A stretch of DNA of 32,077 nt from a virus, in the IMG/VR virus record IMGVR_UViG_3300030107_002090, positions 1-32,077 of that record; one strand, 5' to 3'. Positions 2,803 through 10,497 of the stretch are shown here, piece after piece (positions within the stretch are counted from its first letter, which is position 1; each line of letters starts with the position of its first letter). The notes beneath the pieces were generated by a model. It did no database searches, was not told the DNA's origin, and saw only the letters and a list, made by a program, of their open reading frames with translations. Both the position numbers and the translations under genes were made by a program.

Positions 2803-2865
2803 TGATCTGCCTCATCAGTGGCTGGAGATCATTCCAACCAGACACCGCCGGAGCGGTGTTTCGGC
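2803..2865 (-). ncRNA. Hammerhead ribozyme, type II, copy 4 (ardA / 82-aa gene spacer)
   Basis: A self-cleaving RNA fold with canonical core bases, read on the minus strand. GCC (2865-2863) is the 3' strand of stem II and is followed by GAA. Stem III is ACACCGC/GCGGTGT (7 bp) with loop UCCG, and C17 is at 2841. Stem I is UGGUUGG/CCAGCCA (7 bp, one G-U) with an 8-nt loop. The core CUGAUGA is at 2818-2812, and GGC (2811-2809) closes stem II. Predicted cleavage is between 2841 and 2840, 26 nt after the ardA stop codon and 71 nt before the next ATG. Loop I UGAUCU (2831-2826) can pair with AGAUCA (2808-2803) downstream of stem II as a pseudoknot. Open stem II makes this type II. Activity is inferred, not shown. 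Confidence 0.93.
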
Positions 2866-2866
2866 T

Positions 2867-3412
2867 CTAACAGTAGTTGTCGAAGATGTAGCAGGTGTGA
2901 TTGTTCGTTACACATGAAATGAATGAGGTGTAATGTTCCATTTCCCGCAGGATGTGGTCTTCGTCTGCGTAATTCCAGAATGTGGCCTTCTGATCATCGG
3001 TGAAGTGGCACAGGTCTAGCTCATTAAACCGGTCGCACGCCCAGCGCCGTTGTGCGTTGTGGTAATTCTCACATGTACCGCAATAACGATCTTGGAATTT
3101 GTCTTCGTCGAAGTCGCCAAAGTGGCTTATATACGCTTCTACTTCGTCCTGTCCGTATTGCTCCCAATAGCCGACGCGCTCAGCCAGATCGTCGAGGTCT
3201 TCATACTCGCTTAGCCTGTCAAAACCCTCATGATCATGGATTGCCCATTCTTCAGCGTATGGTTCTGGCGATCGGTCGAGCATGGCCTGCACTCGTGCTT
3301 TGAGATCGTCGGCAAACTCTGTTACCTCGATCCATTCACCATGTAGGATGCCAGCGTTGTAAGAGGCCAAGCATGCAACATAGATTCGGCCTGTGTGTGT
3401 TTGAGTAGTCAT
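2867..3412 (-). CDS. ardA: ArdA-family antirestriction protein
   Basis: ArdA proteins mimic bent B-form DNA and block type I restriction-modification enzymes, protecting incoming DNA. The 181-aa product opens with GRIYVACLASYNAGILHGEW, matching the typical ArdA start (IYVxxLxxYNxGxxxGxW). It continues with EEWAIHDHEGF, an acidic segment SEYEDLDDLAE, EAYISHFGDFDEDKFQDRYCG, and a C-terminal part with FWNYADEDHILREM and an aromatic end. Length and strong acidity fit the family (usually about 165-185 aa). I chose ATG 3412 rather than an upstream ATG at 3484, because the conserved Shine-Dalgarno hairpin ends eight bases before it and the extra 24 codons would cover a ribozyme. Hammerheads flank the gene on both sides, so it would be expressed from its own processed message. 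Its promoter-proximal position fits early expression on entry. Confidence 0.9.
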   Translation of the reverse strand: MTTQTHTGRIYVACLASYNAGILHGEWIEVTEFADDLKARVQAMLDRSPEPYAEEWAIHDHEGFDRLSEYEDLDDLAERVGYWEQYGQDEVEAYISHFGDFDEDKFQDRYCGTCENYHNAQRRWACDRFNELDLCHFTDDQKATFWNYADEDHILREMEHYTSFISCVTNNHTCYIFDNYC

Positions 3413-3417
3413 GTGTT

Positions 3418-3437
3418 TCATCCTTTCGAGTTGATGA
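3418..3437 (-). promoter_or_regulatory. Shine-Dalgarno hairpin before ardA
   Basis: Minus strand TCATC-AACTCGAAAG-GATGA, a 5-bp stem. The second pair is C-G here against G-C (4482 copy) and A-T (2775 copy), a third compensated state at the same position. Confidence 0.65.
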
Positions 3438-3447
3438 AATGTGATGA

Positions 3448-3510
3448 GGTCTGCCATCGTCAGTAGGTGGCGAACCAATGCCACCTAGACGCTCCGAGGA
3501 GCGTTTCGGC
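3448..3510 (-). ncRNA. Hammerhead ribozyme, type II, copy 3 (73-aa gene / ardA spacer)
   Basis: Minus strand: directly after the TAA stop comes GCC (3510-3508, stem II), then GAA. Stem III is ACGCUC/GAGCGU with loop CUCG, and C17 is at 3488. Stem I is UAGGUGGC/GCCACCUA, eight perfect pairs with an 8-nt loop. The core CUGACGA is at 3463-3457, where C at position 7 is allowed because that position varies in known hammerheads. One extra U (3456) precedes GGC (3455-3453), which closes stem II. Predicted cleavage is between 3488 and 3487, 23 nt after the stop codon and 75 nt before the ardA start. The loop I pairing with the 3' flank is weaker than in the other copies: GGUU with GACC, four pairs including one wobble. 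The extra U makes this copy slightly less certain than copies 2 and 4. Confidence 0.87.
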
Positions 3511-3732
3511 TTAGTTTAAAACTTGAATGTGCAATAGTGTCGATTCGGTTTCTCGCAGTGCTTCCAAGTCCTCCTCGGTGATTGGATAGCTTGAGTGTTG
3601 TACTACCCATGAGATTCGCTCACTCATCTCTTCGTGAATCCAGTCCTCCATCTCGTCATGCTCGTCGAATTCTTTGACCGTGGGATTGGTGTCTAGTGAA
3701 TCGGTGGAGTAGGTGACTTTGTATCGTGCCAT
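3511..3732 (-). CDS. Hypothetical acidic protein, 73 aa
   Basis: The protein begins MARYKVTYSTDSLDTNPTVKE, a probable beta hairpin, and continues with an acidic helix (FDEHDEMEDWIHEEMSERI) and a C-terminal strand (STLLHIQVLN). The family is not recognised. Sequence order and size resemble small host-modifying proteins common in phage early regions, but no function can be read from it. ATG 3732 follows the conserved leader CGAAAGGATCACAACC. A ribozyme lies immediately downstream of its TAA and another lies upstream of its leader. Confidence 0.78.
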   Translation of the reverse strand: MARYKVTYSTDSLDTNPTVKEFDEHDEMEDWIHEEMSERISWVVQHSSYPITEEDLEALRETESTLLHIQVLN

Positions 3733-3737
3733 GGTTG

Positions 3738-3754
3738 TGATCCTTTCGAAGATC
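3738..3754 (-). promoter_or_regulatory. Shine-Dalgarno hairpin before the 73-aa gene
   Basis: Minus strand GATC-TTCGAAAG-GATC, a 4-bp stem with the same loop as the copy at 2307-2323; the ribosome-binding bases AAAGGA end nine bases before ATG 3732. Confidence 0.55.
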
Positions 3755-3763
3755 GGGGTTAGT

Positions 3764-3825
3764 TGACCTGTCTCATCAGTGCCAGTAGGTCACGTCTGGC
3801 AGACGCTCCGAAGAGCGTTTCGACA
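3764..3825 (-). ncRNA. Hammerhead ribozyme, type II, copy 2 (215-aa / 73-aa gene spacer)
   Basis: The best-matching copy. Minus strand: UGUC (3825-3822) is the 3' strand of stem II, followed by GAA. Stem III is ACGCUC/GAGCGU closed by a UUCG tetraloop, and C17 is at 3802. Stem I is UGCCAG/CUGGCA with a 10-nt loop. The core CUGAUGA (3779-3773) is canonical, followed by GAC(A) for stem II. Predicted cleavage is between 3802 and 3801, 26 nt after the upstream stop codon and 69 nt before the next start. Loop I UGACCU (3792-3787) is complementary to AGGUCA (3769-3764) just past stem II. That pairing would take A3769 from a fourth stem II pair, leaving the 3-bp GUC/GAC stem seen in the other copies. 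Confidence 0.95.
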
Positions 3826-3827
3826 CG

Positions 3828-4475
3828 TTAGTACGGGAGTGGGACTGGCTCGCTGGAACCTTGCCCTTGGCCTATCCATCTGACCTTTTGTTCCTCCATC
3901 AACTTGACCCAACGCTTCGGCAATCGACGGTAGGAAAAGCGGCATCGTCGCCCTTCACCGGTGTATGAATCAATCACGAATAAAGCTGTTGTACCGTTAG
4001 GCATTTCGAACTCGCACAAAGCCAACCGTTTCTCGGTGTCAACGACCAACACCTCGGCATCTCGGTAGGCCTGATTGCACCAATGATGGAGAAATTGCCC
4101 ACGCTTGTAATGGCGTTTCCTGTCGGCCTTGAGATGCTCTAGAAAGTGCGTGAGGTAGCCGTGCGAATCTTTACCGCTTTCCAAGTGGTAGGCCGTTGTG
4201 AATCCGTGCTTGCCGTCTTCTCTGGTGAAGATGTATGTGTACGGTGGGTTCAGTGGGAATCCGTCCTCAACGGCGTTGTCTAGGTCATTGCCGTAGGCGA
4301 AAACCTGAGCGTAGAACAGTCGCCCATTCTCACGCTTGAAGATGTGTTCTTTGGTGTCGTGATGACGGTCACGAAAACGTACTGGTTCGAAGTCGTTAAG
4401 GAAGAACTCTTGGTCTACTGGTTCCAGTTGGTCAAAAATTACTTGCGGTTCGGTGTGTAGAAAATTACTTTCCAT
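3828..4475 (-). CDS. Hypothetical protein, 215 aa
   Basis: The family is not recognised. The protein is soluble and rich in aromatic and charged residues; it has strands such as GRLFYAQVFAYG, YTYIFTREDGKHGFTTAYHL, EVLVVDTEKRLALCEFE and TTALFVIDSYTGEGRRCRF, a basic loop (LKADRKRHYKRGQFLHHW at about 115-132) and a C-terminal helix (RRLPKRWVKLMEEQKVRW). It therefore looks like a mixed alpha/beta domain. ATG 4475 follows the conserved hairpin leader. It is the second gene of the operon, between ribozyme copies 1 and 2, so early expression is likely. A role in host takeover or antidefence alongside ardA is only inferred from the location. Confidence 0.82.
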   Translation of the reverse strand: MESNFLHTEPQVIFDQLEPVDQEFFLNDFEPVRFRDRHHDTKEHIFKRENGRLFYAQVFAYGNDLDNAVEDGFPLNPPYTYIFTREDGKHGFTTAYHLESGKDSHGYLTHFLEHLKADRKRHYKRGQFLHHWCNQAYRDAEVLVVDTEKRLALCEFEMPNGTTALFVIDSYTGEGRRCRFSYRRLPKRWVKLMEEQKVRWIGQGQGSSEPVPLPY

Positions 4476-4481
4476 TGTGTT

Positions 4482-4500
4482 TGATCCTTTCGAGTGATCA
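4482..4500 (-). promoter_or_regulatory. Shine-Dalgarno hairpin before the 215-aa gene
   Basis: Minus strand TGATC-ACTCGAAAG-GATCA, a 5-bp stem, and the reference copy for comparing stem covariation. AAAGGA lies partly in the loop and partly in the 3' strand, so folding would partly hide the ribosome-binding site. Confidence 0.65.
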
Positions 4501-4508
4501 GGGTTAGT

Positions 4509-4569
4509 TGACCTGTCTTATCAATGCCGGTAGGTCAGATCCGACAGACCGCCGGTTGGCGGTTTCGAC
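4509..4569 (-). ncRNA. Hammerhead ribozyme, type II, copy 1, with altered C3/G8 core pair
   Basis: Minus strand: immediately after the TAA stop comes GUC (4569-4567, stem II), then GAA. Stem III is ACCGCC/GGCGGU with loop AACC, and C17 is at 4547. Stem I is UGUCGG/CCGGCA (one G-U) with a 10-nt loop. The core is UUGAUAA (4524-4518) instead of CUGAUGA, and GAC (4517-4515) closes stem II. The two core changes are C3 to U and G8 to A, the two bases that pair with each other in the active fold, so pairing is kept. Loop I UGACCU (4537-4532) can pair with AGGUCA (4514-4509). Predicted cleavage is between 4547 and 4546, 23 nt after the stop and 71 nt before ATG 4475. It may be slow, inactive, or a working variant; the sequence alone cannot tell. 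Confidence 0.88.
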
Positions 4570-4779
4570 TTACTCGGCAGCAAGAGACTCCAGCTCTCGC
4601 TTAATCTCGCTAATCGCTTTAAGGGACTTGTCACGCTGTTCAGCCCAGTGGGTTTTCTTTGGCTCCTCAGCTTGGGCGTGAAGCATGCAAAGCCAAGGAA
4701 GACCGATTGTGTAGAGATGGAGATCGTCTTTTAGTACATCCTCGCGTGTTGCTCCTGCTGTTATTCGTGGGTATGTCAT
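4570..4779 (-). CDS. Hypothetical protein, 69 aa, first gene of the leftward operon
   Basis: The start is set to ATG 4779, because the conserved CGAAAGGATCAAACAC leader lies directly before it; a longer frame beginning at 4854 would cover the promoter's operator and -10 region. The protein (MTYPRITAGATREDVLKDDL at the N-terminus, then LPWLCMLHAQ, then the charged helix EQRDKSLKAISEIKRELESL) is short and mostly helical, with a probable C-terminal coiled coil. It is not recognised. As the first gene behind a repressible-looking promoter it could be an early regulator or takeover factor, which is inference only. Confidence 0.75.
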   Translation of the reverse strand: MTYPRITAGATREDVLKDDLHLYTIGLPWLCMLHAQAEEPKKTHWAEQRDKSLKAISEIKRELESLAAE

Positions 4780-4784
4780 GTGTT

Positions 4785-4802
4785 TGATCCTTTCGAGTGA
4801 TC
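4785..4802 (-). promoter_or_regulatory. Shine-Dalgarno hairpin before the first gene of the leftward operon
   Basis: Minus strand GATC-ACTCGAAAG-GATC, a 4-bp stem. This copy has no ribozyme in front of it; it follows the promoter leader directly, so the hairpin and the ribozyme are separable elements. Confidence 0.55.
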
Positions 4803-4819: not shown

Positions 4820-4835
4820 ATATCCAACTGGATAT
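4820..4835. promoter_or_regulatory. Operator-like palindrome O1
   Basis: ATATCCAACTGGATAT is a perfect 7+7 bp inverted repeat with a 2-bp centre. It overlaps the expected transcription start (about 4834) of the leftward promoter. It matches O2 (4879-4894) at 13 of 16 positions. A dimeric repressor or activator is the likely ligand; none is identified in the window. Confidence 0.65.
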
Positions 4836-4878: not shown

Positions 4879-4894
4879 ATATCTTTCTGGATAT
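4879..4894. promoter_or_regulatory. Operator-like palindrome O2
   Basis: ATATCTTTCTGGATAT, an imperfect inverted repeat with ATATC/GATAT arms that is closely related to O1. The two sites are 59 bp apart start to start, a distance that would allow one protein to bind both and loop the promoter between them. Confidence 0.6.
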
Positions 4895-8509: not shown

Positions 8510-8668
8510 ATGAAACGTAACCGACTGTTCTACATCACAGGAACTTTATTCCACATAGCCGCAACTACATATTTTCTGGTGCTAATTTGGAAATCGTATG
8601 TGTGGTGGCAGTGGTTACACAGACTACAGGACACCTTAAACGCACAGCCTAATGGAATGTTGATTTGA
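8510..8668 (+). CDS. 52-aa single-pass membrane protein between terminase genes
   Basis: Starts at ATG 8510 with a weak CAAGA leader and ends at TGA 8668, overlapping the terminase TTG start by four bases. The product begins MKRNRLFYITGTLFHIAATT, followed by YFLVLIWKSYVWWQWL. This gives one hydrophobic segment of about 20-24 residues behind a basic N-terminus (probable N-in), with a tryptophan-rich interface and a short polar tail. The position is unusual for a holin, but size and topology would allow that; the alternative is a small membrane-associated factor of unknown role. Confidence 0.65.
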   Translation: MKRNRLFYITGTLFHIAATTYFLVLIWKSYVWWQWLHRLQDTLNAQPNGMLI

Positions 8669-10497
8669 GTTTATATGGCACTGTCCCCAAGGGGCTGAAA
8701 GAGAATCTGGAGTTCAGACGTGACCTGCTTCAATGGGCAGACACGATTGATCGTCAGCGCACCTTATGGACTGCCTGTAAGCACGACATCCTGTTTTTCA
8801 TCAACACATTCTGCTGGCTCTATGAGCCACGCAACAATCGTTTGGTGGGAACAACGAGTAACGTAATTCCTTTTAGAACTTACGAGTTCCAAGATAGAGC
8901 GTTTCTCGAAATGGATGAAGTGTTAGGTCAACACGACATTGGTGTGGAGAAGTCGAGAGACTTGGGAGCGACATGGATGTTCCTGACTCTCTTCTTTCAT
9001 CACTGGATGTTTCACGACTTCAGCAGCTTCGGGATTATGTCCCGTACTGCTGATCTTGTGGACAAGCCGGGGAAGAAGGACACGTTGATGTGGAAGCTAG
9101 ACTTCCTTCTCAACGGCGATGGTGGACGTGGTGGATTACCTGCTTGGATGAAACCAAGTAAGACCTATCGTTCCATGATGCTGATGGAAAACCGAGACAA
9201 CGGTTCGACGTTTGAAGGGGCATCAACCACAGAAGATGCCTTCCGTGGTGGCCGTAAGAAAGCCATTGCTATCGACGAATATGCAGCGTTTCCAAACGGT
9301 GACGACTACAAAGCGTTGGCAGCGACACAACACGCAACAGACTGTCGTGTGTTTGTATCCACTCCGAAAGGAGCAAGTGGTGCTTACTACGATGTGATGC
9401 ACACACCATCGAACATCAGGAAGATCATCCTTAACTGGACGGAGCATCCTGATCGTGGAGTTGGTTTGTACACCAGCAAGGAGGGTGTGTTGCAAATCCT
9501 TGACAAGGATTACAAGTTTCCCGAAGGCTACAAGTATGTGTTGGATGGAAAAGTTCGCGCACCATATTACGACCAAGAGTGTCAACGACCAGGAGCTACA
9601 CCCCAGTCAATCGCACAGGAACTAGACCGTGACTACGGCGGTTCTGAGTATCAGATCTTTGGCAAGGATTTGTACGAACAAGGGAAATCAGGACTGCTTC
9701 GCCCCTATGAGCAAGGAATCCTGTTTTATGACGAAGAAGACCTTACTCCCCAGTTTAATGAAACTTCGGACGGTCCGTTTAAGGTTTGGTGTCACCGTGA
9801 TAGTAGCGGTGTACCTGTAAAGAGCGGACAGTATGTGATTGGTTGTGACATCTCTGCCGGACTCGGTGGTGATTACACAAGTAACTCGGTGATGGTTGTG
9901 TCGGACACAGTAACCGGACAACAGGTGGCCGAATTTGCGACCAACACACTCAGACCAGTAGCGTTCGCTGACATGTCGATTGCGGCTTGTAAGTGGTTTA
10001 ACAACGCCTACTTAATTTGGGAAATGAATGGACCGCCGGGAGCTGCTTACACGAAGCAGATCCTCGAACGTAACTACGGGAACATTTACTACCGTGAAAT
10101 CGAGAACAAGAGTTATCGCAAGAAGACACGCAATCCAGGCTGGTTCAGTACGGACAAGAACAAACTTGCTGTACTGAGTCAGATGTCAGCAGCCATTCAG
10201 AACGGTGAATACTGTATCCGCAGTGAGAAGCTCCTGAATGAATGTCGGCAATACGTTTACAAGCAGGGGAAAGTTGTACACAGTCGTTCCATTAAAACAC
10301 AGGACGACTCGGCCAAAGGTCAGGCACATGGTGACCGAGTGATAGCAGCAGCTCTCGCATGGCACGCAACAAAAGATAGGCCAGCACGCAAACCAGTTGA
10401 ACGAGATGCTTTTGAAGAAGACTTGCCATACGGCTGCATGGCATGGCGAATCAAAGAGTACGAAGATCGTTTAGCGTTACAAAACGATGGTTGGTAA
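8665..10497 (+). CDS. terL: Terminase large subunit
   Basis: The packaging motor cuts concatemeric DNA and drives it into the procapsid. The ATPase half shows a Walker A variant VEKSRDLGATW (94-104), a Walker B with catalytic acid KAIAIDEYAAF (D204, E205) and the coupling motif VSTPKG (231-236). The nuclease half has the RNase H-like acids: D395 in GCDISAG, E453 in IWEMNGPPG and D557 in AHGDRVIAAA. The 610-aa length is normal. The start is TTG 8665: a stop lies four codons upstream in frame, the first ATG (residue 83) would delete part of the ATPase, and TTGA overlaps the preceding stop. The portal start overlaps its TAA (TAATG). Confidence 0.95.
   Translation: MSLYGTVPKGLKENLEFRRDLLQWADTIDRQRTLWTACKHDILFFINTFCWLYEPRNNRLVGTTSNVIPFRTYEFQDRAFLEMDEVLGQHDIGVEKSRDLGATWMFLTLFFHHWMFHDFSSFGIMSRTADLVDKPGKKDTLMWKLDFLLNGDGGRGGLPAWMKPSKTYRSMMLMENRDNGSTFEGASTTEDAFRGGRKKAIAIDEYAAFPNGDDYKALAATQHATDCRVFVSTPKGASGAYYDVMHTPSNIRKIILNWTEHPDRGVGLYTSKEGVLQILDKDYKFPEGYKYVLDGKVRAPYYDQECQRPGATPQSIAQELDRDYGGSEYQIFGKDLYEQGKSGLLRPYEQGILFYDEEDLTPQFNETSDGPFKVWCHRDSSGVPVKSGQYVIGCDISAGLGGDYTSNSVMVVSDTVTGQQVAEFATNTLRPVAFADMSIAACKWFNNAYLIWEMNGPPGAAYTKQILERNYGNIYYREIENKSYRKKTRNPGWFSTDKNKLAVLSQMSAAIQNGEYCIRSEKLLNECRQYVYKQGKVVHSRSIKTQDDSAKGQAHGDRVIAAALAWHATKDRPARKPVERDAFEEDLPYGCMAWRIKEYEDRLALQNDGW

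Follow-up and report, generated by a model that had tools for sequence, protein, structure and literature searches.

Genome Fragment and Operon Organization

The window analysed in this study, the whole stretch of DNA available, is a complete IMG/VR virus record of 32,077 bases. It encodes a terminase at positions 8665-10497 (Pfam Terminase_6N and 6C) and a serine recombinase at 357-1037; the record is therefore a fragment of a tailed phage, which is probably temperate. Its relatives are uncultured IMG/VR phages with a terminase identity of up to 97%, and the best-listed matches among cultured phages show about 19-24%. Megablast of the window against cultured phages gave no match, and a weaker search matched ArdA genes and the ribozyme of Roseobacter phage CRP-7. 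The distant cultured relatives and the metagenome-derived records suggest a marine origin.

The operon under study lies on the minus strand and includes five consecutive genes, with a type II hammerhead element in each of the four spacers between them. The first, gene A (4570-4779, 69 aa), has no match in Pfam or PHROG and is 81% identical to a gene of the relative L025. Gene B (3828-4475, 215 aa) and gene C (3511-3732, 73 aa), both checked in Pfam and PHROG, have no assigned function, and a protein search of viral_contigs with gene B found no relative. The next gene, located between hammerhead copies 3 and 4, is ardA (2867-3412), encoding a 181-aa antirestriction protein (PF07275, 74.7 bits with a cut-off of 27; phrog_2059, E = 1.4e-21). 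Gene D (2521-2769, 82 aa, no assigned function) overlaps the next gene, gene E (2327-2524), by 4 nt. The junction of genes D and E is without a ribozyme, so both genes would stay on one mRNA.

A promoter-like sequence, TTGACA-N16-TAACAT, recognized purely as a match to the consensus (10 of 12 positions), lies ahead of the operon on the minus strand at 4868-4841; the relative L170 has TTGACA-N17-TATCTT at the equivalent site. The promoter sits between two copies of the palindrome ATATCC...GATAT, namely ATATCCAGTTGGATAT just downstream (4820-4835) and ATATCCAGAAAGATAT upstream (4879-4894). A flanking palindrome pair is also present in the relative L006 and, with a different half-site of the CCCC...GGGG type, in L025 and L170. 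The two palindromes are likely a putative DNA operator pair, which fits better than an RNA hairpin because of the second copy at 4879-4894, and a changed half-site in the same geometry is as would be expected of repressor operators with altered specificity. The possibility that the 5′ hairpin of the first gene (AUAUCC-AGUU-GGAUAU) imitates the cut 5′ ends of the other mRNAs was considered and set aside, since the palindrome is duplicated upstream of the promoter and the relatives keep the pair with another half-site.

The ribosome-binding site (RBS) between hammerhead copy 1 and gene B is enclosed in a hairpin, UGAUC-ACUCGAAAG-GAUCA (4482-4500, minus strand). Analogues with different, still complementary stems are found at 4786-4802, 3739-3754, 3416-3439 and 2774-2794, so that a constant UCGAAAGGA with varying stems stands ahead of five operon genes. 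The motif occurs again before the gene at 2137-2298 and, as far as examined, is specific to this phage clade. The spacer at 1975-2137 is strongly structured on the minus strand (MFE −53.1, z −4.3), its RBS being enclosed by GUGAC...GUCAC around a CUUUCC-CGAA-GGAAAG hairpin. Its counterparts in L025 (about 4300-4400) and L170 have GUGUC...GACAC around CUCUAC-CGAA-GUAGAG. Compared with Rfam, this spacer (2137-1975) matched no known family; it is possibly a candidate new cis-regulatory RNA preceding the distal genes.

Type II Hammerhead Ribozymes in the Intergenic Spacers

The Rfam type II hammerhead model RF02276 (Hammerhead_II, gathering score 37 bits) matches the 32-kb record exactly four times, always on the minus strand, with one match per spacer among the five consecutive genes. 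Three exceed the gathering score: 2801-2866 (copy 4; 53.7 bits, single-family E-value in the record 3.5e-12), 3762-3825 (copy 2; 44.9 bits, 7.1e-10) and 3445-3511 (copy 3; 43.7 bits, 1.5e-9). The match at 4507-4570 (copy 1; 29.1 bits, 9.6e-6) remains below it because its core reads UUGAUAA, the paired C3-G8 being changed to U3-A8. A descriptor of our own design, which required GAAA, a stem III with four or more pairs and an A-U closing pair, H17, a stem I with three or more pairs, a 7-nt core and a stem II with two or more pairs, found the same four elements in the window and nothing else. With perfect cores required, it gave one hit in 1.64 Mb of reversed sequence compared with 307 on the true strands of the loci retrieved, a set picked because they hold hammerheads. 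Four type II hammerheads had been proposed for these spacers by the first-pass annotation, and both the Rfam matches and the independent descriptor bear them out, with copy 1 scoring under the Rfam cut-off.

All four copies follow the type II order, that is, stem II 3′ strand, GAAA, closed stem III, H17, closed stem I, core and stem II 5′ strand, with stem II loopless. Copy 1 (4507-4569) consists of stem II (4569-4567/4517-4515), stem III (4563-4548), stem I (4546-4525), the core UUGAUAA (4524-4518) and a pseudoknot strand (4514-4509), and its predicted cut is at 4547/4546. In copy 2 (3764-3824), stem II is formed by 3824-3822/3772-3770, stem III by 3818-3803 and stem I by 3801-3780; the core CUGAUGA (3779-3773) is followed by a pseudoknot strand at 3769-3764, and the cut is predicted at 3802/3801. 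Copy 3 (3448-3510) has stem II at 3510-3508/3455-3453, stem III at 3504-3489, stem I at 3487-3464, the core CUGACGA at 3463-3457, an extra U at 3456 and a pseudoknot strand at 3451-3448, with a predicted cut at 3488/3487. The last element, copy 4 (2803-2865), combines stem II (2865-2863/2811-2809), stem III (2859-2842), stem I (2840-2819), the core CUGAUGA (2818-2812) and a pseudoknot strand (2808-2803), and would be cut at 2841/2840. All cut sites are on the minus strand.

The catalytic core (C3 U4 G5 A6 N7 G8 A9 together with G12 A13 A14) is exact in copies 2, 3 and 4. The U3-A8 core of copy 1 recurs in L006, where stem III differs from that of copy 1, as well as in the contigs L057 and L085. 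U3-A8 cores of several natural hammerheads are described by Perreault et al. 2011 (PMC3088659), who cite earlier proof of their in vitro activity. The additional U of copy 3 is unpaired and lies between A9 and stem II; an extra base at this place, nearly always U, was found in 12 of 206 elements among the IMG/VR matches listed, including the L025 copy before ardA. Loop I forms a pseudoknot with the strand 3′ of stem II, comprising six pairs in copies 1 and 2 (UGACCU/AGGUCA) and in copy 4 (UGAUCU/AGAUCA) and four in copy 3. The first-pass annotation had given the stem sequences, the element coordinates, the cuts after 4547, 3802, 3488 and 2841 and the distances to the stop codons correctly. Its structural description holds for the order of elements and missed the extra U 3456 and the loop I pseudoknot, and the CUGANGA-type core that it ascribed to every copy is present in all except copy 1. 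Judged by sequence and predicted structure, the four elements are genuine type II hammerhead ribozymes. Cleavage could be slow in copy 1, given its sub-cut-off score, and likewise in copy 3, with its bulge next to the core.

Predicted Processing of the Operon RNA

It is highly probable that the type II hammerheads fold during leftward transcription and split the operon RNA into separate mRNAs. The operon would be transcribed from the minus strand, probably starting at the promoter at 4868-4841, and each ribozyme would fold while being synthesized and cleave its own strand at the junction of stems III and I. Individual mRNAs would be expected for gene A, gene B, gene C and ardA, plus one for gene D with its followers. 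Each upstream mRNA would retain its stop codon and, roughly 22-28 nt beyond it, terminate with the stem III hairpin, carrying a 2′,3′-cyclic phosphate; each downstream mRNA would start with a 5′-OH directly on the stem I hairpin, followed by the ribosome-binding site. In bacterial RNA decay, 5′-OH ends and terminal hairpins tend to slow degradation. The most likely benefit would be that every gene, regardless of the genes next to it, is given a separate mRNA whose ends are protected. Published arrays of a similar kind cleave during in vitro transcription, and one ardA array also does so in E. coli (PMC3088659). The first-pass annotation saw the ribozymes as acting in place of terminators; the sole minus-strand terminator-like match lies upstream of the operon and the whole scan was no better than chance, which weakly favours this part of the proposal.

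Position of Phage Hammerheads Relative to Stop Codons

The position of hammerheads was surveyed in 206 distinct elements from the fetched IMG/VR loci, among the matches listed. This sample is not random; it was selected by the ribozyme pattern without a stop-codon criterion, it includes at least one probable false positive with a low score (L044), and the open reading frames were called mechanically (same strand, at least 40 aa). G12 was located 0-5 nt after the stop codon of a same-strand frame in 161 of these 206 listed elements (78%) versus 2.6% of random positions, and 143 of 186 listed elements were still within this range after a crude removal of similar contexts. Downstream of the 206 listed elements, a start codon with a Shine-Dalgarno-like sequence follows at a median distance of 25 nt. 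At least four hammerheads, and up to 11, were present in 13 of the 50 IMG/VR and phage records searched, which had been chosen to favour multiple hits. Four copies per record are not exceptional, and these counts are evidence that long arrays are common in viromes. One record, L105 (IMGVR_UViG_3300040801_000321), has 11 type II hammerhead matches on one strand within about 5 kb. In another phage genome, L250 (MW202801.1, 2954-4057), a gene annotated as an antirestriction protein is located shortly upstream of a type II hammerhead, which makes it a further case of the two being neighbours.

The tight spacing is compatible with a refinement of message splitting rather than its opposite, with a low probability in our estimate: with the stop codon in or against stem II, a ribosome halted there would shield stem II, GAAA and one half of stem III, cutting would take place only in its absence, and splitting would thereby be linked to translation of the upstream gene. 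Stop-to-G12 distances of 2 and 3 nt are the most frequent (77 and 52 of the 206 elements among the matches listed), and in 85 of the 161 close cases among these matches the stop codon overlaps the stem II strand, its last base often being in stem II, as such gating would have it. However, simple genome compaction would also press the motif against the stop codon, and the enrichment is less marked in contigs of bacterial genomes, where 15 of 46 elements lie within 0-5 nt versus 2.1% of random positions. If gating does occur, a stop codon in stem II would be a translation-linked punctuation mark, controlling whether each gene receives a separate mRNA, and at what time.

Covariation and Gene Shuffling in Related Phages

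Fifteen ribozymes from the window and the three relatives L006, L025 and L170 were aligned. In stems I, II and III, all 225 of 225 cells are standard pairs, several positions showing three to six pair types. The pseudoknot, which covaries across the relatives, is paired in 59 of 60 cells among the short-loop copies and in 20 of 25 among the long-loop copies; given the small alignment and the kinship of the copies, these counts are descriptive and not a significance test. All stem positions are paired despite many compensatory changes, which argues that the hammerheads are maintained RNAs.

Among 43 terminase relatives, many of the others being short fragments, arrays were found in two, L006 (the same as contig L158) and L170. 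The pattern scan for ribozymes identified a third array phage, L025, which was also recovered via ardA. The corresponding operon holds four ribozymes in L006, four in L025 and three in L170. The order in L025 is gene G, ribozyme, a small ORF, gene A, ribozyme, gene H, ribozyme, ardA, ribozyme and then a recombinase, with gene G being the sole gene common to L006. The close relative L159 (terminase 95% identical), which has its own ardA, lacks ribozymes throughout the 48 kb of its record, so this lineage can dispense with them. From these comparisons, the ribozymes persist as the intervening genes come and go among close relatives, and one lineage does without them.

Two simpler associations were also considered. 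A tie between the ribozymes and ardA was rejected, ardA being present in only one of 50 ribozyme-bearing records, where, as in the present array, it has ribozymes on both sides. In three phages the copy preceding ardA is of one shared subtype; since the remaining copies show no such pattern, no tracking of subtype with the downstream gene is claimed.

The difference in gene content between persisting ribozymes among the four related phages, including the unit of gene A plus one ribozyme that is present in L025 and absent from L170, is what would be left by cassette exchange, in which the near-identical ribozyme and RBS repeats are recombination sites shuffling small phage genes and cutting is secondary. 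This is improbable, more so than gating by the ribosome, as the stems diverge yet stay paired and the cores stay catalytic-type, neither of which recombination alone would require, and U3 and A8 change jointly. It is very improbable that the motifs are mainly mRNA end stabilisers or RNase guides that do not self-cleave in the phage: stems III and I are strong hairpins and the self-cleavage of these sequences is a prediction, but plain hairpins would have no need of the features conserved here, namely the pseudoknot, the complete catalytic core, C17 and the A15.1-U16.1 pair. The splitting of the operon RNA by self-cleaving hammerheads remains the preferred explanation, supported by the Rfam matches in all four spacers, the paired stems, the arrays kept in relatives and the position of 161 of 206 elements, among the matches listed, near a stop codon.

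Comparison with Known Hammerhead Arrays

Type II hammerheads, their pseudoknot and their clusters flanking single prophage genes were described by Perreault et al. 2011 (PMC3088659), who proposed the processing of single-gene mRNAs from long phage transcripts. The same paper reports a triple array around ardA of A. tumefaciens, which cleaves in E. coli, and ardA downstream of a hammerhead in Legionella. The dedicated mRNA-processing system envisaged by the first-pass annotation is thus a reading supported by sequence, covariation and published precedent, and the idea that such a run had no earlier description was wrong. A 2017 review (PMC6155905) still regards the role of hammerheads in phages as an open question.

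As in the prophage clusters of 2011 (PMC3088659), successive hammerheads surround single genes or short gene blocks, ardA is flanked and an integrase is nearby; several hammerheads on one strand flanking single genes are found here and likewise in L006, L025 and L170. Unlike those clusters, the present array belongs to an uncultured, presumably marine phage and has four copies in four successive spacers. Its ribozymes are fused or nearly fused to stop codons; the words "stop codon" do not occur in the body text of the 2011 paper (PMC3088659). In the comparisons made, no named relative was identified for the genes besides ardA. The elements share the order, core, open stem II and loop I pseudoknot of RF02276, differing from it in the U3-A8 core and sub-cut-off score of copy 1 and the extra U after A9 in copy 3. 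Roseobacter phages CRP-7 and CRP-212 and Anoxybacillus phage A403 also carry type II hammerheads, located between genes or immediately in front of them; in contrast to the array, these cultured phages have one or two copies only, and they are useful laboratory models.

The array is a new example of an arrangement first described in 2011 and not a new system. What is added here are the statistics on stop-codon fusion, the recurrent extra U after A9, the comparison of gene shuffling and the evidence for long arrays being common in viromes; the literature search covered open-access papers, so later reports of these additions may exist. Its four copies, two of them canonical and two variant, and the shuffled genes of the related phages make the locus a compact test case. 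Gene cassettes punctuated by ribozymes could help to build balanced synthetic operons. The fusion of ribozymes to stop codons offers a specific, testable idea on the interplay between cutting and translation.
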